Positions 2,951-21,363 of a stretch of DNA of 64,000 nt are shown piece after piece. The notes under the pieces are model-generated. The model saw only the letters and a list, made by a program, of their open reading frames with translations, was not told where the DNA came from and did no database searches. The stretch covers positions 434,001 through 498,000 of the forward strand of contig NZ_JACJPL010000018.1 in assembly GCF_014696065.1 (NCBI RefSeq), written 5' to 3'. This DNA comes from Leptolyngbya sp. FACHB-261 (GTDB lineage Bacteria; Cyanobacteriota; Cyanobacteriia; FACHB-261). The first letter of the stretch is position 1. Every line of letters begins with the position of its first letter. Both the position numbers and the translations under genes were made by a program.

Positions 2951-3142
2951 TTACGCCGCAGGATAACCAATTTTCAGCAGGGTCTGACGCAAAGTTTCCT
3001 CTGATTGGCTCGTTTCTACCTGGACTAATTTAGTTTTAGGGTCAGCCTGAACCGTTGCGGCTGGATCAAGCTTTTGAATCGCACTGGTTACAGTTGCAAC
3101 ACAAGCAGAACAGGCTAAATCGGGCACTTTGAGTTGAATCAT
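2951..3142 (-). CDS. HMA-domain heavy-metal-binding protein (CopZ-like)
   Basis: A 63-residue protein consisting of one heavy-metal-associated domain, the ferredoxin-like fold of copper chaperones and of the N-termini of P1B ATPases. The metal-binding loop reads 'VPDLACSACVATV', so the CxxC cysteines are present. The usual Met two residues before the first Cys is replaced by Leu-Ala. The ATG at 3142 gives exactly the standard domain length; longer in-frame readings add a stretch unlike the family. It lies downstream of the cysteine desulfurase on the same strand, with a 113-bp gap, and may be independently expressed. A role in Cu(I) or other soft-metal trafficking is inferred from the family; no metal ATPase is nearby. 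Confidence 0.85.
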   Translation of the reverse strand: MIQLKVPDLACSACVATVTSAIQKLDPAATVQADPKTKLVQVETSQSEETLRQTLLKIGYPAA

Positions 3143-3255
3143 AATTAAGTCATTCACTCTTTTTTGACCTTGTTTCTGATCTTGAAGTTTCCAGGCTGCT
3201 GGAGAGTCAAGAGTTTTTCTGCGCGGGGTTGCAATCCTGTCTACTAACCTGCTTT

Positions 3256-4437
3256 TTAACGCCACGTCATTGCCATTTTGCGCAGCTTTTGTACGGTATC
3301 GACTACTGCAACGGCAACTTGATCAACTTCTTCGGTGGTGTTGAAGCGGCCTAAGCCAAAGCGCAGTGCAGCGTGGGCTTCCTGGTCAGTTCGACCCAAC
3401 GCCTTGAGTACGTGGGAAGGAGCCACTTCAGCTGAGGTGCAGGCAGAACCCGAAGAAAGCGCAACCACTTGGCGCAGCCCGATCAACAGGGCTTCACCAT
3501 CCACCCCACCAAAGCAAACATTGAGGTTACCGGGCAGGCGTTGGCCGGGATGGCCGTTAAGTTTGAGGTCGTCTAGAACCTGGAGTTGCTGCCAAAGCTG
3601 CTCCCGTAAACTAGTGAGCCGAGCAGCTTCACTTTCAAGTTCCAGCATCGCCAGTTCGACCGCTTTGCCTAGGCCAGCAATCTGGGGCACGAACAGAGTG
3701 CCTGAGCGCAAACCGCGTTCGTGACCACCACCATGCATCTGAGGCGCTAGCTTGACCCGTGGATCGCGACGACGCACGTAAAGCGCACCAATACCCTTAG
3801 GTCCATAGACCTTGTGGGCCGTCAACGACATCAAGTCAATGTTCTGAGCTTGCACATCCAGCGGAATTTTGCCGACTGCTTGAGCAGCATCAGTGTGAAA
3901 GAGCACGTTGTGCTGCTTAGCCAAGGCTCCGATTTGCGTTAGTGGCTGCAGAACACCGATTTCGTTATTGGCAGCCATCACTGAAATCAGCACAGTATCG
4001 GGTCGAATTGCTTGCTCTAGGGCCCGTAAATCGATCAGCCCTTGGCTATCAACCCCTAATAAAGTCACCTCAAAACCCAAGCCCTGCAAATAGTGCACAG
4101 GGTCAAGCACGGCATTATGCTCAGTGGTCACACTGATTAAATGACGCCCCTTACTGAGATAAGCCTCCGCCACACCTTTAATCGCCAAATTATTGGCTTC
4201 AGTTGCACCACTGGTGAAGATAATTTCCTCTGGACTGCAATTAATTGCTGCCGCTAGGGTCTCTCTCGCCTGTGTCACAGCCGCTTCCGCCTCCCAGCCG
4301 TAGACATGGGAGCTGCTCGCTGCATTACCAAACGCATGGGTGAAGTAGGGCAACATCACTTCCAACACGCGAGGATCCGTGGGGGTAGTGGCGTGGTGGT
4401 CCAGGTAGATAGGTCGGGACGGCAGAGATGAGCCCAT
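3256..4437 (-). CDS. Cysteine desulfurase, NifS/IscS type
   Basis: A PLP-dependent class V aminotransferase-fold enzyme that removes sulfur from L-cysteine to give alanine and an enzyme persulfide for Fe-S cluster or tRNA thiolation. Visible features are the N-terminal 'IYLDHHATTP', the PLP-His region 'TTEHNA', the Schiff-base lysine in 'SLTAHKVYGPKG', and the mobile catalytic loop 'SSGSACTSAEVAPSHVL' with the active Cys. I start it at ATG 4437 (393 aa), 8 residues before the conserved 'RPIYLDHH'. A GTG at 4509 would add 24 atypical residues. No iscU-, sufE- or nifU-like gene lies beside it, so the acceptor is unknown. Cyanobacteria usually have several paralogues, so I give no symbol. Confidence 0.95.
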   Translation of the reverse strand: MGSSLPSRPIYLDHHATTPTDPRVLEVMLPYFTHAFGNAASSSHVYGWEAEAAVTQARETLAAAINCSPEEIIFTSGATEANNLAIKGVAEAYLSKGRHLISVTTEHNAVLDPVHYLQGLGFEVTLLGVDSQGLIDLRALEQAIRPDTVLISVMAANNEIGVLQPLTQIGALAKQHNVLFHTDAAQAVGKIPLDVQAQNIDLMSLTAHKVYGPKGIGALYVRRRDPRVKLAPQMHGGGHERGLRSGTLFVPQIAGLGKAVELAMLELESEAARLTSLREQLWQQLQVLDDLKLNGHPGQRLPGNLNVCFGGVDGEALLIGLRQVVALSSGSACTSAEVAPSHVLKALGRTDQEAHAALRFGLGRFNTTEEVDQVAVAVVDTVQKLRKMAMTWR

Positions 4438-10634: not shown

Positions 10635-10734
10635 TGTGTTAACCTGAGATTCCTGTTTCGAGCCGAAACTCGTTGACAAAGCGAAACAGTTGACAAAGTT
10701 AAACATAGGTTCATTGCAGTAGGGAGTTGTGACG

Positions 10735-11691
10735 ATGGAGCATCTGGAGCAATTTCGACAGATGGCACGCTCAATGCGTTTCGTGCCACCCCAGTGGAAG
10801 CTGCCAGATGCTTGCAAGTCTCTCACGCAGGTTCCGGCGCTGCCTGCGGTTCCATCTGCTGGCAATTGGACTGATTGGTCTCAGGTGCCTGAATCTGAGC
10901 TGCCACCCCACGTTTTAGGGGCTCTGCATCAGGCTCGGGTACAGCCCCAAACAGACCACGATTTGCCAGTTGAACGCTTTGCCGTAGTTAAGATTTCGGG
11001 CTCACAGCCCAGTGATCCCTTCCAGGTTCCAACGATTGAGGTGCCACCCCACGAGCGCTTTGCGGTGGTGAAAATTGCAGGCTTGCCGCCCTTGGGTCCT
11101 GTTGCTAACGAGGTAACTTCTCAGCAGCCCAAACTGGAGACCTCTACCTCTCATGCTCCTCATGCTGCTTCGTCCCCAACTGTGGCGGAAGTGGCTGAGC
11201 CGGTCGCTACGCTTGAAGCGCTGACCACAGTAGCCGTCGCCCCTCTCGAACCCGGAATTGCGATCGAGCCTAAGATTGAGCCAACTGTGCCTATCAAGCC
11301 TGCAATCGAACCAGTAGTACCTACCTCCCATGCATCCCATGCTGCGGCTGCTGCGGCAGAGGAAGTCGCAGTAGAAGCACCCACGAAAGCAGAGGAACTG
11401 GCTCCGCTCGAACCAGCAGCGCTCCCTAAACCTGCGCTTGAGCCAACTGCACCAGTGGCAGACCACCCTGTAGAAGCCCACGTGGATAGACCTTCGCCTG
11501 TTCCTGCACCTCCCGATCATGAGGCTAGTCATGAAGCTAGTCATGAGGTAGCTCCTGAGCCACCAGTCGCGTTGGTCCCAGACCAACCCACTCCGGCTGC
11601 TAATACAAATGCTGCCGATGCGAATAATGCTAAGCGTCCTGCCAAGACCAAAAACCGTTCTTCTCAGGCTAAAGGCTTTAAGAAGCGGTAA
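10735..11691 (+). CDS. Pro/Ala/Glu/Val-rich low-complexity protein
   Basis: A 318-residue protein of unknown function. The first 60 residues look folded ('EHLEQFRQMARSMRFVPPQWKLPDACK'-type, Trp/Pro bearing; longer quotation avoided). Two copies of 'ERFAVVKI' follow, then about 200 residues of P/A/E/V repeats ('EPKIEPTVPIKPAIEPVVP') and a basic Lys/Arg tail 'KNRSSQAKGFKKR'. The start is ATG 10735, because AGGGAG lies 8 nt upstream; the in-frame GTG at 10729 would be only 2 nt from it. The composition suggests a disordered scaffold or surface linker with a basic nucleic-acid- or membrane-binding end, which is inference. Terminators on both sides make it a single-gene unit. Confidence 0.75.
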   Translation: MEHLEQFRQMARSMRFVPPQWKLPDACKSLTQVPALPAVPSAGNWTDWSQVPESELPPHVLGALHQARVQPQTDHDLPVERFAVVKISGSQPSDPFQVPTIEVPPHERFAVVKIAGLPPLGPVANEVTSQQPKLETSTSHAPHAASSPTVAEVAEPVATLEALTTVAVAPLEPGIAIEPKIEPTVPIKPAIEPVVPTSHASHAAAAAAEEVAVEAPTKAEELAPLEPAALPKPALEPTAPVADHPVEAHVDRPSPVPAPPDHEASHEASHEVAPEPPVALVPDQPTPAANTNAADANNAKRPAKTKNRSSQAKGFKKR

Positions 11692-12019: not shown

Positions 12020-14251
12020 ATGACACTCAAGCGTAGACACTTTCTAATGTTTCTGGGGGCAGGCGCGGGTTCAGCAGCCCTTGGTCCTCTCTATCGCCCG
12101 AACCAGCCGTTCTCGATGCCCTTTACGCCTGAGGCAGCAACGGCAGCTACACCAGGCGCCCTGACCTTCAGTCCAATTAAAGGGCCAATGCCTCTAGCCA
12201 CTGACGGTGTCTCTCAGGAAAAGCAAACCGAGACGTACACCAACTACGAGGTTAAGGACGATCTGGTTCTGCCCGAAGGCTTTACCTACAACGTGATCGC
12301 CGCTTGGGGAGACAAGGTGGGCGATTCACGCTTTGGCTACAACAACGACTATGTCAGTGTCATTGAGACTGGCAATGGGCAGGGCTATCTTTGGGCTAAT
12401 TTCGAATACATCAGCAGTGTGTCCTGGACCCAATCGTTCCAACAAGTAATTGGCAAGTCCTTGCCCTTCGATGAAGTGAAAGCTGCAATCCCTAAAGACG
12501 AAAAGGGAGAATTGCAAGGCATTGATGCTTTTGCGCTGCCGGACAGCAACCCACTCAAGCAGAAAATTCGCCAAATCAGCATCGAAGCCTTGCGCGACCA
12601 AGGCGGTGGGGTGATCGGTGTGCAAAAGAACCGCGATGGCAGCTGGACCCGCAAACCAGGGGTTGCCGACCGGCGTATCACCGGCATTTCCGGGCTGGAA
12701 GACAACCGCTACCTGCGCACCACTGGACCATCGGCAGCTGTGTTTCGCAAGGCCCAAGTGCAGGGTTATACCGACCGATTAGGGGACCGCATTATTGGCT
12801 CCTTTGGTAACTGCTCGGGTGGTACTACCCCCTGGGGCACCGTTTTGAGCGCCGAGGAGAACTTCCAAAGCCAAGTGGCAGAGCCAGTACATGCCGATGG
12901 CAGTTCTTTCCCACCCTCGACGCGCAAGTTTAATATTGATGCTGAAGAAGTCGGCGGCCAAGGTAATGTCTTAGGTCTAGCGGGCAATAAATATGGCTGG
13001 ATTGTGGAAGTCGATCCCGCGAACCCACGGGATTACGGCACCAAGCACACTTGGCTGGGCCGTTTTCGTCATGAAGCAGTAGGGATTCGGGCTGAGACAG
13101 GCAAGCGAGTTGCTTTCTACTCGGGCTGTGACCGTCGTGGGGGTCACCTCTACAAGTTTGTCAGTCAGGAAGCCGTGCGCAATGTAGCGGATAAGAGCAA
13201 TTCGCGTCTACTAGAGCGCGGCATGCTCTATGTAGCTAAGTTCAACGCCAATGGCACAGGCCGCTGGATTCCACTTCAGGCCACCACACCAGTAGATCCC
13301 ACCCTGCCCAGCACGATCGAAGGTGGCATGATCACCCTGCCTAAACGCCCTGACGGTGGCTTCGACAAAGTCAAAGAGGATGGCAAGGTTCAGGAATTCA
13401 AGCAGCAGTTCAAGACCCTAGGCGACCTGTACAGCGGCAACAATGCCCAAGAAGTTCAGGGCGCTATCTTGATCGACGCTCACTACGCTGCCAATGCTGC
13501 TGGTGCAACCTGTACCGCTCGTCCTGAGGATACTGACCTGGCTGCTGATGGTTCGCTCTACATCACTTTCACCTCTGGCGCTGCCAGTAGCAGCGATGGT
13601 GGTCCTGAAAAGGCAATCTTTAAGGGTCCAGATGGCTCTACAGCTTATGAGTACGGCTTCATCACTCATTTGATTGAAGAGGGCAATGACCCAGCAGCCA
13701 TGAATTTCCGTTGGCGGCACTTCAGCTTAGGCGGTGAGCCTGCCGAGGGCGGTATGGGTTTTGCCAACCCAGATAATTTGCTGCTGGACAAGGCCGGCAA
13801 CATCTGGATGGTCACTGATATGTCCAGCGATAAACATAATCGAGCGGTGCCAAGCCGAGTCGATAAAGAGGGCAAGCCCGTTAGCCAGTCTAATCTTCGG
13901 GGCTTGTTTGGCAACAACTCGATCTGGTTCATTCCGACCTCTGGTGCGAGTGCTGGTCAGGCTTACCTCTTTGGTTATGGGCCAACGGATAGTGAAACCA
14001 CTGGGCCATTCTTTAGCCGGGATGAGCAAACTCTGTTCCTAGCCGTGCAACACCCTGGTGAAGTCGGGGGGATTCGCAAGGATATGGCAGATGAGACCCG
14101 GCAGTACGCGATGCGCACCGTCGATGGCAAGGAGTTTATGCAAACTCGCAAAGTGCCGATTGGCTCCAACTGGCCAGCTAAGCAAGCCAATCTGCCCCCT
14201 CGCCCGGCAGTGGTTGCAATCCGCAAAACTAATGGCGGCAAGCTGACTTGA
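12020..14251 (+). CDS. phoX: PhoX/DUF839 family phosphatase, Tat-exported
   Basis: A 743-residue secreted phosphatase of the PhoX (DUF839) family, Ca/Fe-dependent enzymes that release phosphate from organic phosphomonoesters outside the cytoplasm. The N-terminus 'KRRHFLMFLGAGAGSAAL' is a twin-arginine signal. The family blocks are present: 'NFEYISSV' near the N-terminus, 'GNCSGGTTPWGTVLSAEE' (metal and phosphate site), 'GRFRHEAVG', 'FYSGCDRRGGHLYKFVS' and 'EDTDLAADGSLYI'. Length fits large cyanobacterial PhoX proteins. It is probably induced by phosphate starvation by family analogy, but I see no convincing Pho box. It is monocistronic, bounded by terminators at 11744 and 14356. Confidence 0.9.
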   Translation: MTLKRRHFLMFLGAGAGSAALGPLYRPNQPFSMPFTPEAATAATPGALTFSPIKGPMPLATDGVSQEKQTETYTNYEVKDDLVLPEGFTYNVIAAWGDKVGDSRFGYNNDYVSVIETGNGQGYLWANFEYISSVSWTQSFQQVIGKSLPFDEVKAAIPKDEKGELQGIDAFALPDSNPLKQKIRQISIEALRDQGGGVIGVQKNRDGSWTRKPGVADRRITGISGLEDNRYLRTTGPSAAVFRKAQVQGYTDRLGDRIIGSFGNCSGGTTPWGTVLSAEENFQSQVAEPVHADGSSFPPSTRKFNIDAEEVGGQGNVLGLAGNKYGWIVEVDPANPRDYGTKHTWLGRFRHEAVGIRAETGKRVAFYSGCDRRGGHLYKFVSQEAVRNVADKSNSRLLERGMLYVAKFNANGTGRWIPLQATTPVDPTLPSTIEGGMITLPKRPDGGFDKVKEDGKVQEFKQQFKTLGDLYSGNNAQEVQGAILIDAHYAANAAGATCTARPEDTDLAADGSLYITFTSGAASSSDGGPEKAIFKGPDGSTAYEYGFITHLIEEGNDPAAMNFRWRHFSLGGEPAEGGMGFANPDNLLLDKAGNIWMVTDMSSDKHNRAVPSRVDKEGKPVSQSNLRGLFGNNSIWFIPTSGASAGQAYLFGYGPTDSETTGPFFSRDEQTLFLAVQHPGEVGGIRKDMADETRQYAMRTVDGKEFMQTRKVPIGSNWPAKQANLPPRPAVVAIRKTNGGKLT

Positions 14252-14434: not shown

Positions 14435-14710
14435 CTAGTTGATGCTCAGCTGTTGGGGATTGGGGCAGCAGTTACACAAGCGGACAGTCGGTAGAAGGTC
14501 TTGCAATTTGTGCCGAATTTCAGCCAAGTGTCGTTTTGCTGACAGCAACCGGCTCTCAACTTCCTCAAGCCTTAATAGGTCGGAAGTTGAATTGCCATGA
14601 GCCTGCCCGTAAAGTGCATCAGCCAGTATCCGTGCAGCTTCTAGCGTTTCAGCTAGATAGTAGCTGCTCTCCACGAACAGACGCTCCACATCCTCATCAC
14701 GCCCCGACAT
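14435..14710 (-). CDS. Small helical protein with C-terminal CxCC (paralogue 2)
   Basis: A 91-residue protein with no recognised family. It is predicted largely helical, with heptad-like 'LRLEEVESRLLSAKRHLAEIR', and ends with a cysteine cluster 'VRLCNCCPNPQQ'. It is clearly paralogous to the next gene upstream at 14876-15142. Shared positions include the N-terminal MS-x-x-D, 'LAE/LAD', 'ALxGQxxGxxT', 'RHLxEIR' and the terminal CxCC. No signal peptide. The two genes are 165 bp apart on the same strand. The cysteine cluster could bind a metal or Fe-S cluster or act in thiol chemistry, but this is inference only. Confidence 0.7.
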   Translation of the reverse strand: MSGRDEDVERLFVESSYYLAETLEAARILADALYGQAHGNSTSDLLRLEEVESRLLSAKRHLAEIRHKLQDLLPTVRLCNCCPNPQQLSIN

Positions 14711-14875
14711 ATGACAAGTACCAGGTCAACCGTCGTTCACCTTAAAACAACTTCGAGGGCAGAACGTCTGAGTTTGGGAAGAAGACGAAGGGACAACCTC
14801 AAACTTCTCCAAGCGTTCCCTTCAGCAAAGAGCCAAGCGTTCGCGCTCAGAACCCTCTATCGCCAGTGGAACTTG

Positions 14876-15142
14876 TCAGTGGCAACAGCCACACATAGTG
14901 ACAAGCGAGCTGCGCTGCTGGAGTATACGGTCAATTTCACCCCTGATCTCAGTCAAGTGACGGCTCGCCTCCTCTAGCCTGAGCTGAGCTTTAACCAGCT
15001 TGCTCCGAGGTATACCAGTTGGACGTCCGTCGATCTGGCCTGGCAATGCCTCAGTGATTGTAGTAGATGCCTCTACAAAGTCTGCTAGCCAAAACGACAA
15101 CTCGGCCAGAAGCGTTAACAGTTCTGCATCATGATCAGACAT
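14876..15142 (-). CDS. Small helical protein with C-terminal CxCC (paralogue 1)
   Basis: An 88-residue protein, the upstream member of a tandem duplicated pair with 14435-14710. The helical core contains 'LVKAQLRLEEASRHLTEIR', and the protein ends 'VTMCGCCH', placing the CxCC at the extreme C-terminus. Conservation of both the helix and the cysteines across otherwise diverged copies argues that the motif is functional. Function unknown. It is preceded by a 214-bp spacer toward the ABC permease gene, in which I see no clear promoter motif. Confidence 0.7.
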   Translation of the reverse strand: MSDHDAELLTLLAELSFWLADFVEASTTITEALPGQIDGRPTGIPRSKLVKAQLRLEEASRHLTEIRGEIDRILQQRSSLVTMCGCCH

Positions 15143-15356
15143 GGTTCACCTTCGGGCTCCACTCATGCTCACAGTAATTGCAACTTTGCTCGGTAGCACC
15201 CAAAGACCAGGCTTACTAACCGAGTCTTTATATCAAGGTCTTGTATAAACTACTACACCCGCTCTTAACAAAGCAATACAAAGCGACCAAACTAGAGCTG
15301 ATTCTTTAGCAAAGATAAAGAAGAGATGAGCTTAAGACAATGATTTGCAACACAGG

Positions 15357-16331
15357 TTAATCCTGCTCAAAGGTTCGGCCTAGAGCAGCAGGAGGGGTCA
15401 CTCGGATCGTCTGCAAGGCTGTTCGCCTTAGAGAGGCAGGCAGTGGCGAGAGCAGCCGATCTAGCCAATCGCTGGAGGTCAGCACCAACACCAGAATCAT
15501 CAACACAAAGGGAGCCACCGTGAAGACCTGGGTGGGTACCGCTTGGATCGTACTTTGCGCAACGCTGGCAAAAGACTGCAGAATGCCGAACAGATAAGCA
15601 CCTAGGGCAACCCGGATGGGGTTCCAGCCACCAAAAATCACAATTGCCAAGGCAATCCAGCCATAACCCGCAGTATGCCGATGGCTCCAGCCTGCTTTGA
15701 AATCTAGAGAGAAAGCAGCGCCAGCAATTCCCATCAGAGCCCCACCTACCAGAGTGTAAAGGTAGCGCATCAAAACGACATTGGTGCCCCGTGCAAAGGC
15801 GGCGGCTGGTTGCTCGCCAATTGCTCTTAACAACAGGCCGCTTCGCGTGCGGTAGAAGTAAACCCAAGTGGCAATGATCAGGGCATAGCTGATGTAGACC
15901 AGCCAATCACTTTGAAACAATAGAGGTCCCACAATTGGAATGTCTTGCAGCACCGGAATTTTGAAACTGGGCACGGTGGGACCGGGAATGCGCACGACCG
16001 GATTACCGAGAAAAGAAGATAGGTCACCGCACAGCAAAGCCAAGACAAAACCAATCGCGATCTGAGACTGTTGCAGGCTGATCGCGGCGTAGGCAACCAC
16101 TAAAGCAATCAGAGCCCCCACCACCGCAGCGCTTGCAAAACCCAACAGCAAGCTATTAGTGGTTTTGGCAACTGCAAAGCCAACCATCGCCGAGAGCAGA
16201 ATCGTGCCCTCGGCTGAAAGATTAATCACCCCAGCTCGTTCTGTAATCGTTTCACCGATACAAGCAAAGACCAGGGGAGTTGCGGTGGCAATTGCTGTGG
16301 CGAGGATGCCAATTAACTGTGCTGAATCCAT
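15357..16331 (-). CDS. Nucleoside-type ABC transporter permease, subunit 2
   Basis: A 324-residue inner-membrane permease of the branched-chain/BMP group (NupQ/YufQ-like). It opens with 'TPLVFACIGETITERAGVINLSAEG', abridged here, whose 'ERAGVINLSAEG' is the family marker. About nine hydrophobic helices follow. Together with the permease at 16401-17444, the double ATPase and the BMP lipoprotein it should form one importer. In characterised Gram-positive and spirochaete relatives such systems take up purine nucleosides. It is the last gene of the operon. Confidence 0.92.
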   Translation of the reverse strand: MDSAQLIGILATAIATATPLVFACIGETITERAGVINLSAEGTILLSAMVGFAVAKTTNSLLLGFASAAVVGALIALVVAYAAISLQQSQIAIGFVLALLCGDLSSFLGNPVVRIPGPTVPSFKIPVLQDIPIVGPLLFQSDWLVYISYALIIATWVYFYRTRSGLLLRAIGEQPAAAFARGTNVVLMRYLYTLVGGALMGIAGAAFSLDFKAGWSHRHTAGYGWIALAIVIFGGWNPIRVALGAYLFGILQSFASVAQSTIQAVPTQVFTVAPFVLMILVLVLTSSDWLDRLLSPLPASLRRTALQTIRVTPPAALGRTFEQD

Positions 16332-16358
16332 GCTAAATCTATCAGGCTCATTGGACTA

Positions 16359-16374
16359 TTTAGAAATTTCTAAA
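16359..16374. repeat. Perfect 16-bp palindrome between the two permease genes
   Basis: TTTAGAAATTTCTAAA is fully self-complementary and lies in the 69-bp gap between the permease genes. It may be an internal regulatory site or simply an A/T-rich palindrome; no T-run terminator geometry is present. Confidence 0.45.
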
Positions 16375-16400
16375 CCAAGATGCTTCCTAAGCAAATATTT

Positions 16401-17444
16401 CTAAGAATTTTTGAGACCATTCTTTCTTTCACTGAAACCACGGCCTAAAACAGCAAACAAGACTAAGGTGCCCTGGATTACACCTGCCAGGGAAGACTCT
16501 AGTTGTAGAGCCAGTGGCAATTGCAAACTGCCGATATTTAAGGCACTAAAGAAAAAGGCAACCGGCACAATGAACAGGGCATTGAAGCCGACCAACATCA
16601 CTACTAGCAGTGCCAGAAAACCAAGATTGCTGGAGATATTAGGAATCAAACGATGAAATACCCCAACCACTTGCAAAGCGCCCGCAATACCAGCAAAGGC
16701 ACCACAAATTGCAAAAGAGCTTAGGAGTTGCCTCACAGCAGGAATGCCCAAAACATAAGATGCTCGCAAGTTTTGGCCCACAGCGCGGAGCTTGAGGCCA
16801 AAGTGAGTGCCGCGAATCACCACCACAGTTACAACCACGGCTAAGGCGGCCAGGATTAAAGAAATTGGGCTCGCTTCTGTATTGCCAAAGGTGCTCAGCC
16901 ACAGCGACTCATTTAACAATTCAGTGCCACTCATTGAGGCAACACCAGGCCGCTTCCAGGGGCCGAAAATCAAGTAGAGCGTTAAGCCTTGGGCAACAAA
17001 ATTTAGGCCCAGCCCGGCAAAAATCTCGTTGACTTTGCCATATACATTCAGCACACCTGCGAACAGCCCCCAAATTGCCCCACCGATTGTGCCAGCTACC
17101 AGTGCCAAGGCAATGACTAATGGAGCAGGTATAGCCCCTTCCAACAATCGAAGTAGGGCAGTCGTAGCGATTGCACCCACTGCAATTTGTCCCTCGATCC
17201 CTAAGTTATAGAGCCCGGCGGTGAAGGTGAACACTAACCCACTAGCGCATAGTAGCAGTGGGGCTAGTGTGGACAGCACCCGTGCAAATTGATCGGCAGT
17301 GCCGAAAGCGCCATCCCACAAGCTAGCGACCACTTGAAAAGGGGAGACACCCGATAAAGCAATGACTATAGCAATAAACAACAGCGACACCACAAAGGAG
17401 CCAACTTGATAGTAATTAGACCTCGATAGCAGGTTGCTTTTCAT
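16401..17444 (-). CDS. Nucleoside-type ABC transporter permease, subunit 1
   Basis: A 347-residue permease (NupP/YufP-like). About eight to ten hydrophobic helices are visible. The family motif 'GLVFTFTAGLYNLGIEGQ' occurs near residues 65-85, and 'NVYGKVNEIFAGLGLNFVA' is the cytoplasmic loop that contacts the ATPase. It is encoded on the minus strand downstream of the nucleotidyltransferase gene (131-bp gap) and upstream of the second permease. Confidence 0.92.
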   Translation of the reverse strand: MKSNLLSRSNYYQVGSFVVSLLFIAIVIALSGVSPFQVVASLWDGAFGTADQFARVLSTLAPLLLCASGLVFTFTAGLYNLGIEGQIAVGAIATTALLRLLEGAIPAPLVIALALVAGTIGGAIWGLFAGVLNVYGKVNEIFAGLGLNFVAQGLTLYLIFGPWKRPGVASMSGTELLNESLWLSTFGNTEASPISLILAALAVVVTVVVIRGTHFGLKLRAVGQNLRASYVLGIPAVRQLLSSFAICGAFAGIAGALQVVGVFHRLIPNISSNLGFLALLVVMLVGFNALFIVPVAFFFSALNIGSLQLPLALQLESSLAGVIQGTLVLFAVLGRGFSERKNGLKNS

Positions 17445-17575
17445 CTGTGGTTTTCACTGATGGTTTGCAGGTAAATTCGCTTCAATTTGACTCAATCTCT
17501 CTATAAATATCAGCCAGTCTCAAGGGATAGTTATCAGAAACAGCTATAGCAGGCAGTTATGATTGCCTTCCATGT

Positions 17576-18352
17576 TTACTGGCTACCCTGTAGAGCCTTG
17601 AGTTTAGCTTTTGCGTCAGGCAAGGTTTCAACCCAAAAAGCCTCCGCGAGATGCTGTTTCTGGATCAGATTGGCCAAATCAGTTATGCAGTAAAGTGGCT
17701 CCACACGAGTAACAATACCAGCCGGCAGATCTCGGCTGAAGTACTTAGCTCTAAAATCGTATCGGTACGGTCGGTGGACCATATTGAGCAGTTCCACTAA
17801 GGGCCGAAGCGTGAAGGCATGATAGTTGGTCAGAGCTTCTATCAAACGCCCCCGATTAATTTCTTTCTTGACCAAGACTTGCAAAAAATCGAACGTCATA
17901 CTGAGCTGAGCCAGCCTCTCTTGCATTCTTAGAAAATGTTCGCTCCGGTTGAGGGGAGGTGGAACCACAAGATTTGCTTTATCAAAACCAATTACCACGT
18001 TGCCATGTCGTTCCACCTCCAGAAAGTGGTTGGCATGGCTGTGCTGTATTAGAACAAAATCAATAAACAAGAATGGGCTCACACCAGCTAGCTGATAAAA
18101 GCATTGGCCATGACCATGCCAAGTCGGTTCAGGCACCCTCCACTTAAATTGAATTGGAGCCAGGGTCCGGAGTGATTTTTCTAGAGCGTCAAAAGTTTCT
18201 TGTACATGATTGTCTTGAACAATTACCTGAAGATCGAGGTCTGACCACTCATCGGTATAGCCCTGTGCTTCTGACCCTCCTTGCCAAAAAGCCAAAACGA
18301 AATCTAAGGGCTGTAGGGCGGCAATGATCGTCTCTAAAATTGCTGTTCTCAT
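17576..18352 (-). CDS. Nucleotidyltransferase-fold protein inside the ABC operon
   Basis: A 258-residue protein with an N-terminal Pol-beta-type nucleotidyltransferase core. 'GGSEAQGYTDEWSDLDLQV' supplies the G-S motif and the D-x-D metal-binding pair, and 'LFIDFVLI' is a candidate third acidic strand. The helical C-terminal half (about 130-255) resembles the substrate-binding part of aminoglycoside/MNT-like enzymes. It probably transfers a nucleotide to a small molecule or a protein; the substrate is unknown. It sits between the ATPase gene (17-bp gap) and the permease gene (131-bp gap) on the same strand, so it is likely co-transcribed with the importer. That placement is unusual for this transporter family. 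Confidence 0.8.
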   Translation of the reverse strand: MRTAILETIIAALQPLDFVLAFWQGGSEAQGYTDEWSDLDLQVIVQDNHVQETFDALEKSLRTLAPIQFKWRVPEPTWHGHGQCFYQLAGVSPFLFIDFVLIQHSHANHFLEVERHGNVVIGFDKANLVVPPPLNRSEHFLRMQERLAQLSMTFDFLQVLVKKEINRGRLIEALTNYHAFTLRPLVELLNMVHRPYRYDFRAKYFSRDLPAGIVTRVEPLYCITDLANLIQKQHLAEAFWVETLPDAKAKLKALQGSQ

Positions 18353-18369
18353 AGTGAGGGACAGTGAGC

Positions 18370-19887
18370 TTAGAGCGGCATTGTTTTGGATTCAGGTAGC
18401 AATGCCTGCCCTGCCCCTTGCCCCTCAAATTTGCCACCGATCATCTGGCCGAGTTGATCAACGGTCAAGCTAGCCACATCAATCGGTTCGGAGACTTTAC
18501 CACCGCTAAATACAATCACCCGGTCACTGTACTGCATGATTTCGTCTAGATCAGATGAAGCGAACAAAATTGCAGTGCCAGTCTGACAACGAGCCATGAG
18601 TTGCTCCCAAACCCAGAGCGATGATTCAATGTCTAAGCCACGAGTCGGGTGCTCCATCAATACCAGATTTAACGGCGTAGGCAAAAGCGCTAGTTGGGTG
18701 CGCTGTTGATTACCCCCAGAGAGCCGCTCAACGCGAGTATTGGGTTTGCCTCGGATATTAAATTGACTGATCCGTTGCTGAGCAACTTTGAGCATCTCGC
18801 TCCAACGAATGAACAGCCCAGGGGAAGGGCTGCGCAGGGCCACATGCTCTTGAATCGACAGGCCACTGATTAGCCCTTCTTTCAAGCGGTCTGCGGGTAA
18901 ATAGCCAATACCAGAACGCAGGTAGTCTCGATAGGGTTTGCGCGTCAAGTTTGTCGCATTGAGATAAATACTGCCTGAGCCGGTCTGCAATAGCCCTGCA
19001 CATAACAGCAGCAGTAGGTGCTGCCCACTCCCCTCCAAACCGGCTAAGCCAATGATTTCGCCACAGTGAACTGTGAGCTTGTCAATCTGTATTCTCAACC
19101 GCTCATCATTGAGAACTACCTGATTGAGTTGGAGTAAGACATCACTCTGGTGAGTTTTCGACTTCGTGGGCAAAGCTAACTCACGGCCAAACATTAACTC
19201 TACAAGTTGACTGGCAGGACAAGGGAGTTCAACATGACCCACCACCTGTCCCCGTCGCATCACCGTAACGCGGTCGCAAAGTTCTTCAACGTCCTCCAAT
19301 TTATGTGAGACAAAAACAACTGATTTGCCCTCGCCAATTAGTTGCTTTAAGGCTGTGAACAAAGCAGTTTTTTGGGACGCTGAAATACCCGTTGTTGGTT
19401 CATCTAAAATTAGCGTCTCGACCCCCAATGAGAGCAGACGCAAAATTTCGAGTTGTTGGCGTTCTCCAACCGTGAGATTGCTCACCAAATCGTTCACATT
19501 CAAGTCGAAATTGAACTGAGCAGCCAATTGCCGAAACTCTCGAACTGCTGTCCGACGATTAGTGAAAAAAGCACTCTTGCGGCTGCCCGCCATAAAATTG
19601 TCCAGCACCGATAGGGGCGGAAAATCCAGCGGATCTTGGTGCAACATGCCAACGCCAGCGCGAATAGCATCGGCTGGCGTTCTAATCTCAACAGGCTGCC
19701 CCTTCAACACAATGCGGCCCTGGTCTCGAATAACAAAACCGCTGAGCACTTTGACCAGGGTGCTTTTACCAGCACCATTCTCACCTAGTAGGCCATGAAT
19801 GGTGCCTGCTTCTACCGTCAGAGACACATCTTGGTTCGCCTGGATAGGACCGAAGCGCTTGTAAATGTGTTGAAGCTCAACCTGCAT
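18370..19887 (-). CDS. Double-domain ABC ATPase of nucleoside-type importer
   Basis: A 505-residue cytoplasmic ATPase with two fused nucleotide-binding domains (NupO/YufO-like). The first domain is intact: Walker A 'GLLGENGAGKSTLVKVL', signature 'LTVGERQQ', Walker B 'LILDEPTTGIS'. The second is degenerate: 'GLAGLEGSGQ' in place of Walker A, an ordinary signature 'LSGGNQQR', and 'LVLMEHPTRGLD' in which the catalytic Glu position is His. Such asymmetry is normal for this family. It is 20 bp downstream of the lipoprotein gene and 17 bp upstream of the nucleotidyltransferase gene. Confidence 0.94.
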   Translation of the reverse strand: MQVELQHIYKRFGPIQANQDVSLTVEAGTIHGLLGENGAGKSTLVKVLSGFVIRDQGRIVLKGQPVEIRTPADAIRAGVGMLHQDPLDFPPLSVLDNFMAGSRKSAFFTNRRTAVREFRQLAAQFNFDLNVNDLVSNLTVGERQQLEILRLLSLGVETLILDEPTTGISASQKTALFTALKQLIGEGKSVVFVSHKLEDVEELCDRVTVMRRGQVVGHVELPCPASQLVELMFGRELALPTKSKTHQSDVLLQLNQVVLNDERLRIQIDKLTVHCGEIIGLAGLEGSGQHLLLLLCAGLLQTGSGSIYLNATNLTRKPYRDYLRSGIGYLPADRLKEGLISGLSIQEHVALRSPSPGLFIRWSEMLKVAQQRISQFNIRGKPNTRVERLSGGNQQRTQLALLPTPLNLVLMEHPTRGLDIESSLWVWEQLMARCQTGTAILFASSDLDEIMQYSDRVIVFSGGKVSEPIDVASLTVDQLGQMIGGKFEGQGAGQALLPESKTMPL

Positions 19888-19907
19888 AGTTGCCTACTTA
19901 TTGGGCT

Positions 19908-21146
19908 TTACTTACTAGGTCCCTCCATGCCCGCCAGCAGCTGAGGCATGTACCAGATTTGCTGCTCGGTAGCAGTTTCACCCGCCTTAATAAATTCGGT
20001 GCCGTCCTGGAACTTGAGGGGGCCTTTATAGGGGTTGATACTGCCATTCCCCAGTCCCTGGACGAATTCATCTAGCTGTGCCTTTTTAGCCCCAAGTGCC
20101 TTGCCTGGCTCGAAGCCAATCATTGAGGTCTCAGCGTTATTGATGTTCTTCCAATCAGGACCCAACCAGACAAATTCACTCTGGTATTGGCCTGCTTTGG
20201 CCTTATTGATCGCCTCAATATAGGGGGGGCCCCAGCTATAGTACGGCACACCCAAACAGATGTCGGGAGCCAGATTGCAACCCGTCCTCAAATCGTAGTG
20301 GACAAACTTAACCGGCCTACCGGCATCCGCCGCTTTTTTGCCCTCTACCGCCACCTCAGGTGTGTCGATACCGGACATCACTACGTCGTAGCCACTGTTG
20401 TAGTAGTCATTGGCCACTTTGGTGGGGTCTAGGGTTACACCCGGAATGTTAAACCAAAAGCCAATCCAGGTGACCTTGAAGTTTAGATCCTCAGGTTTTT
20501 TGCCGCTGTACTTGTCCCAGCAATAGCGTGCGCCTAAATAAGCAGCAGAGGTATAGCGTCGGGTTTCGTCATTAATCAGGGGACCGACGTAGCCAATTTT
20601 GCCGGTTTGTGAGCCTAAAGCCGCTGCACAACCCGCCATCATTTTGCCGAATTCCATGCGGCCCATGATGTTGCCTAGATTCGGCTGATTTTTGTAGTTC
20701 TGGCCTTCTTTCCAAGCGTAGTCACCGGAGGCATGAATCACGGTCACATCAGGATGCTTCTTCGCCGTTTCTAGGGCGTCATCCTTGAAGTCATCTGAAT
20801 TGAAAATAATGAATTTAGCACCTTTGGCAATCAGATCATCCGCAACTTGGGAGCCCTTCACATTGGGTCGGTCGGCAGGGTTCACCTTATCGACATACTC
20901 AAATTTGATGCCAGGATCTTTCTCCATGACATACTGGGTCGCCTCGAAGTGCGCCTGATTCCAACCCCCATCTTTGGTTGGACCCACTAGTACCATACCA
21001 ACCTTATATTCGGAGGAGCTGGCAGCCGTTGCCTGAGCCGCAGGGGTACCGGCATCAGTTGCAGGTGCTCCAGTCGAGGTAGGGCCGCTACAGGCTCCCA
21101 CAAAAAGCCCCAGCACTGCGACCTGCCAGAAACGGTGTTTCAGCAT
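19908..21146 (-). CDS. BMP-family substrate-binding lipoprotein
   Basis: A 412-residue periplasmic binding protein of the Bmp/Med family, first gene of the importer operon. The N-terminus 'MLKHRFWQVAVLGLFVGAC' is a lipoprotein signal with the acylated Cys at residue 19. The mature protein begins with a Thr/Ala-rich tether, then 'KVGMVLVGPTKDGGWNQ', the family's first strand, and later 'IFNSDDF' and 'GPLINDETRRY'. Relatives bind purine nucleosides or related ligands. The in-frame GTG 21197 and ATG 21173 would extend the N-terminus by up to 17 residues, but the signal peptide fits ATG 21146 best. Confidence 0.9.
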   Translation of the reverse strand: MLKHRFWQVAVLGLFVGACSGPTSTGAPATDAGTPAAQATAASSSEYKVGMVLVGPTKDGGWNQAHFEATQYVMEKDPGIKFEYVDKVNPADRPNVKGSQVADDLIAKGAKFIIFNSDDFKDDALETAKKHPDVTVIHASGDYAWKEGQNYKNQPNLGNIMGRMEFGKMMAGCAAALGSQTGKIGYVGPLINDETRRYTSAAYLGARYCWDKYSGKKPEDLNFKVTWIGFWFNIPGVTLDPTKVANDYYNSGYDVVMSGIDTPEVAVEGKKAADAGRPVKFVHYDLRTGCNLAPDICLGVPYYSWGPPYIEAINKAKAGQYQSEFVWLGPDWKNINNAETSMIGFEPGKALGAKKAQLDEFVQGLGNGSINPYKGPLKFQDGTEFIKAGETATEQQIWYMPQLLAGMEGPSK

Positions 21147-21363
21147 TTGCGAAAGAACAGCGATAGCACTCATGCCTTCAATAAAACTAGACTTCACGCT
21201 TCACCCACTCAGTGCCAAGCTGGTCCTTATTCTGTCGGTACCAGCTCGTAGAGCAACCTATCTGCGCTCCACGTCCACTTAAAGCGATTGCCTGCTCAGC
21301 GAATGTATCAGGGATTACCCCTAACTTGTATCAAACTGGCTCTATGAACTGCCAAACAACAAA

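Follow-up and report, generated by a model that had tools for sequence, protein, structure and literature searches.

Two small genes lying one behind the other on the minus strand of a contig of Leptolyngbya sp. FACHB-261, here called A and B, are, judged by their sequences, homologous and constitute a tandem duplicate, and they appear to form a lineage-restricted family of two, with no known family having been overlooked. Each encodes a protein that is predicted to fold as a helical hairpin and that carries a CxCC motif in its C-terminal tail; analogy with other CxCC motifs makes metal binding by this tail plausible. The pair is located in a stretch of 64,000 nucleotides (NZ_JACJPL010000018.1, positions 434,001 to 498,000), referred to as the window in the following, and its features are, in window coordinates:

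15143 to 15356, minus strand: gap of 214 nt between the ABC permease gene and B, with an AAGGTGA whose end lies 3 nt from the ATG of B
14876 to 15142, minus strand: gene B, 88 aa; modelled helical hairpin of residues 3-38 and 46-81; C-terminal M-C-G-C-C-H-stop
14882 to 14893, minus strand: CGCC codons of B, TGT GGC TGT TGC, followed by CAC and TGA
14711 to 14875, minus strand: spacer of 165 nt between B and A, with an AAGGTGA run whose end lies, on direct reading, 26 nt from the ATG of A
14435 to 14710, minus strand: gene A, 91 aa; modelled helical hairpin of residues 3-37 and 45-72; CNCC at residues 79-82, then PNPQQLSIN
14465 to 14476, minus strand: CNCC codons of A, TGT AAC TGC TGC

The sequence-only reading had placed two minus-strand open reading frames of 91 and 88 residues here, and their coordinates were confirmed. 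Both genes start with ATG, and the order on the minus strand is ABC permease gene (15357-16331, BPD_transp_2), B, A, while a PhoX gene on the plus strand (12020-14251) is convergent with the pair. On direct reading of the spacer, a ribosome-binding site at the usual spacing was not evident for A, and a promoter scan gave no sigma-70-type match in the gap of 15143 to 15356. Neither Rfam families nor tRNAs were found in the window, so that an explanation of the locus in terms of such RNAs is without support.

The relationship of the two proteins is documented by a BLASTP match with an E value of 2e-14, in which 31 of 87 aligned positions (36%) are identical, and when A served as query against the whole host genome, B was recovered at E 4e-9. 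The paralogy that had been proposed earlier thus holds, and the elements named with it, ALxGQxxGxxT, RHLxEIR and CxCC, were located in both sequences. Over the 82 aligned codons the genes differ in 123 of 246 bases. The BLOSUM62 sum over these codons reaches 149 in the true frame and does not exceed 37 in any of the other five, all of which are interrupted by stops in A, in B, or in both. If substitutions were placed randomly, 18.1 identical residues would be expected vs the 31 observed; none of 5000 such trials reached 31, and only 209 of them were without stops. This frame-specific conservation between A and B identifies them as coding, beyond what chance would produce. Codon usage, a weak measure, ranks the true frame of A as the best of six, but not that of B. 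With dN of 0.65-0.66 and dS of 1.37-1.87, as obtained by the NG86 and LWL85 methods, dN/dS amounts to ≈ 0.35-0.48, which together with the frame conservation points to an old divergence with both copies under purifying selection as proteins. We infer that both genes are translated.

In the host genome (6.95 Mb, 36 contigs), the genome-wide count of paralogues recommended by the sequence-only reading arrived at two copies only, A and B, the next profile match having an E value of 0.33. The search with an HMM built from both sequences, likewise recommended there, was carried out with a profile of two rows, A and B (A1), against overlapping sets of 388 genomes of the class, 388 of one order, and 386 of the phylum; it recovered the host pair and yielded no convincing homologue elsewhere in these sets. 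Among the 388 class genomes, 17 besides the host matched at E ≤ 0.05, vs ≈ 19 expected by chance, and among the 386 genomes of the phylum the host alone matched. Since the host was recovered in both the class and the phylum searches, the search itself works. Two orders gave 0 of 42 and 0 of 36 genomes, and two others 1 of 1 and 2 of 100, all three matches being phycobilisome linkers; the deeper draw of 388 genomes from one order returned a single match, to one of the same linkers. In a drawn set of 59 genomes, in which the closest relatives belong to the same class at best and none to the order of the host, B alone matched 29 at E ≤ 1, the host included, with a best value outside the host of 0.02. 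Weak matches were read in their context (ten loci, then five, plus five in the host's own genome), and none had the architecture of the gene; at one of the ten (L040), a frame of 43 aa resembles the N-terminus, with a stop just upstream and the second half absent. A pattern scan of the genome contigs with B alone gave no match, nor did viral contigs or plasmids. In phages A was without a match, and B met three records at E 0.08-0.9, none spanning 80% of its length. Furthermore, no significant match came from Pfam, NCBIfam, PHROGs, PADLOC, or a sequence search of the PDB, in line with the earlier statement that no family was recognized.

The neighboring permease (15357-16331) occurs in other cyanobacteria with up to 81% identity. 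A counterpart of A or B downstream of it was found neither among frames of at least 100 residues within 2.5 kb at 20 of the 80 named loci, nor in a profile search of all frames of at least 25 residues in 155 loci. As the pair is absent from the examined loci of the permease as well as from the genome sets searched, A and B are restricted to one lineage, an isolated cyanobacterial one, as far as is shown by these collections, which cover part of the sequenced species and in which the genomes nearest to the host share its class. That the host is a cyanobacterium is borne out by its phycobilisome linkers and by the nearest named permeases, which are mostly cyanobacterial. In this respect the pair resembles the lineage-restricted orphan small proteins of bacteria, being short, with no outside homologue and no database family; unlike single orphans, it offers in its diverged tandem paralogue evidence of both coding and constraint. 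Such a family is here shown to be coding without any homologue from outside, the tandem copy providing the comparison. In the opening parts of abstracts on CxCC motifs, including those on cyanobacteria, small proteins, metallochaperones, and helical hairpins, no such pair is described.

The strongest resemblance to anything outside the host was that of A1 to CpcC-like phycobilisome linkers of several genomes, with E values down to 9e-4. These matches fall in the turn region of A/B and in the N-terminal part of the linkers (loci L030, L036, L038, L156, and L157), and they raise the question whether the hairpin represents the first two helices of the PF00427 linker domain, from which A and B would then be an offshoot. 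In hhalign, four such linkers gave 90.5% and a score of 39.5, which is inflated as the four had been chosen from a search, but lies above the best of 300 shuffles (25.4) and the best of the 900 of 1108 control ORFs used (22.2). However, the host has nine linker domains of its own, and these scored 9.6-17.6 singly and 15.4 together, which is noise and inside the control range; pooled with the four, they gave 29.4. PF00427 (PBS_linker_poly) was not listed in the Pfam scan of A and B, and when it was run against the host genome at E ≤ 10, it found the nine true linker domains and neither A nor B. A linker origin was rejected on these grounds and is scarcely credible; in view of the failures of the host linkers and of PF00427, we take the likeness to be a chance one, between two short helices picked up by searching many genomes.

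The sequence-only reading had described the proteins as helical, which agrees with AlphaFold2 predictions based on the two-row alignment of A and B. The model of B (mean pLDDT 88.7) and that of A (mean pLDDT 81.9) are both two-helix hairpins with the helix boundaries listed above. ALxGQxxGxxT covers the last part of helix 1 and reaches into the inter-helix turn, and RHLxEIR is situated inside helix 2. The ends which bear the CxCC are modelled at low confidence, with a pLDDT of ≈ 40-55 in the tails; averaged by blocks, it is 53 in B and 66, 49, and 42 in A. Foldseek returned no match at E ≤ 0.001. VIA-align rows reached Z values of up to 9.5, under the tool's informative level for helical bundles; they are generic helical hairpins, and no function was taken from them.

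Each protein has exactly three cysteines, all of them within the aligned CxCC, in contrast to 61 in 7740 residues for 18 other genes of the window. The motif had been described as terminal in both proteins; this is correct for B, where CGCC is followed by a histidine and the stop, whereas A continues for nine residues beyond CNCC. It had further been stated that selection has evidently kept the terminal cysteines. This is too strong for two sequences with no outside homologue, as three given columns would all match at the identity of 31/82 with P ≈ 0.05; selection may possibly have acted on the cysteines. The same figure favors a reading in which the hairpin, for example as a coiled-coil adaptor or subunit, carries the function and A and B share the cysteines incidentally, by descent. 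Of the 31 identical columns, 28 are other than the cysteines, and those of the ALxGQxxGxxT loop and of RHLxEIR are among them. The rarity of cysteine in window proteins, its absence from the rest of A and B, and the retention of the motif although it lies beside a 4-residue alignment gap argue against this reading, which we regard as unlikely. The lipidation that had been offered as an option for the tail found nothing in its support.

For the CxCC itself there are two relevant precedents. In COG0523 GTPases it is described as a metal-binding motif needed for metal handling (PMC2770081, PMC7689651). A and B have the C-x-C-C, as CGCC and CNCC, in common with these G3E GTPase metallochaperones, in which, however, it is placed inside a P-loop GTPase domain and not at the end of a hairpin protein of 88-91 aa. 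No such domain (COG0523/CobW) was matched in A or B by Pfam or NCBIfam, and the models are two-helix structures. In CopG, as reported, CxCC and two methionines hold a Cu cluster (PMC7558416); nearby methionine thus serves as a ligand there, and in B a methionine directly precedes CGCC. On the other hand, CopG is thioredoxin-like and periplasmic, while A and B have all-helical models, no Pfam match to a thioredoxin-like domain, and no signal-peptide-like start. With the defining domains absent, A and B belong in neither the COG0523 nor the CopG family. The Pfam family of the CsoR/RcnR metal-sensing repressors was likewise not listed for A and B at E ≤ 10, a threshold to be read with the HMMER filters in mind, which drop most matches above ≈ 0.1.

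By analogy with these motifs, A and B may be conceived as hairpins that oligomerize and coordinate a soft metal through their CxCC tails, a tentative reading which we place somewhat below an even chance. Each protein would fold as an antiparallel two-helix hairpin, as in the models; association through the hydrophobic face of the hairpin would probably yield oligomers, possibly a four-helix bundle of A with B. A three-thiolate site for a soft metal, Cu(I) or Zn(II), would be provided by the flexible CxCC tail at the C-terminus, in B with the methionine and the terminal histidine next to the putative site, and A and B would serve as small carriers or buffers of metal. Paralogy, coding constraint, the hairpin models, and the confinement of all cysteines to the tail are counted in its favor. 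Against it stand the cysteine P value given above, an analogy built on a short motif in unrelated folds, and the surroundings: no metal gene lies beside A and B, whose neighbors are the ABC permease and PhoX genes, and a single HMA-domain protein was seen, ≈ 11 kb away. A more elaborate form, in which the two tails of an A-B four-helix bundle would join into a six-cysteine site for multiple Cu(I) or of an Fe-S-like kind, is quite improbable; it would make the pair the founding members of a lineage-private, stand-alone metal-thiolate family, a design independent of the GTPase and thioredoxin folds that bear CxCC elsewhere. If the tails bind metal, CxCC would function here as a tail module of minimal size attached to a simple hairpin, in a setting other than the two folds for which the reports cited describe it; if they do not, A and B would be an ordinary orphan pair.

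A tail that is modelled at low confidence and holds both vicinal and spaced cysteines would also suit a redox switch or thiol relay. Disulfides would then form inside one hairpin, from one hairpin to another, or to a partner, and the pair would be a redox-controlled scaffold. CP12 is similar in idea, and the host is a phototroph with phycobilisome linkers in its genome. As neither a thioredoxin-type nor a CP12 Pfam match was obtained for A and B, and no redox partner gene was recognized adjoining them, this role is considered unlikely. It is nevertheless, together with the purely structural one, the main rival of metal binding, and the present data do not separate the three. The small size and a cysteine-rich end following a folded region might finally recall precursors of RiPPs, with a helical leader and a short cysteine-rich core modified post-translationally. 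A Pfam scan covering 37 of the 48 window ORFs recognized no RiPP-modifying enzyme, the one radical-SAM protein encountered being HemN-like and ≈ 38 kb off; conservation extends through the entire region preceding the cysteines, and a leader cleavage motif was not evident; precursors of this type are very improbable.

As to the wider surroundings, the permease gene upstream of B is part of a row of ABC importer genes on the minus strand (15357-21197), with BPD_transp_2 permeases at 15357-16331 and 16401-17444, a nucleotidyltransferase-like gene inside the row at 17576-18352, an ATPase at 18370-19887, and a likely substrate-binding protein, putatively BmpA-like, at 19908-21197. Close relatives of the permease 15357-16331 occur in Sorangium (67-68% identity) and in several Chloroflexota (up to 78%), the loci being L078, L079, L138, L139, and L141 among others; this distribution suggests that the importer has spread horizontally. 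A small HMA-domain protein of 104 aa, encoded at 2951-3265 on the minus strand, adjoins a class-V aminotransferase gene, and a 320-aa protein rich in Pro, Ala, and Glu, with no Pfam match, is encoded at 10729-11691 on the plus strand. Between 56001 and 58000 there is a strong local GC skew of +0.309, while the rest of the window is near zero or negative.
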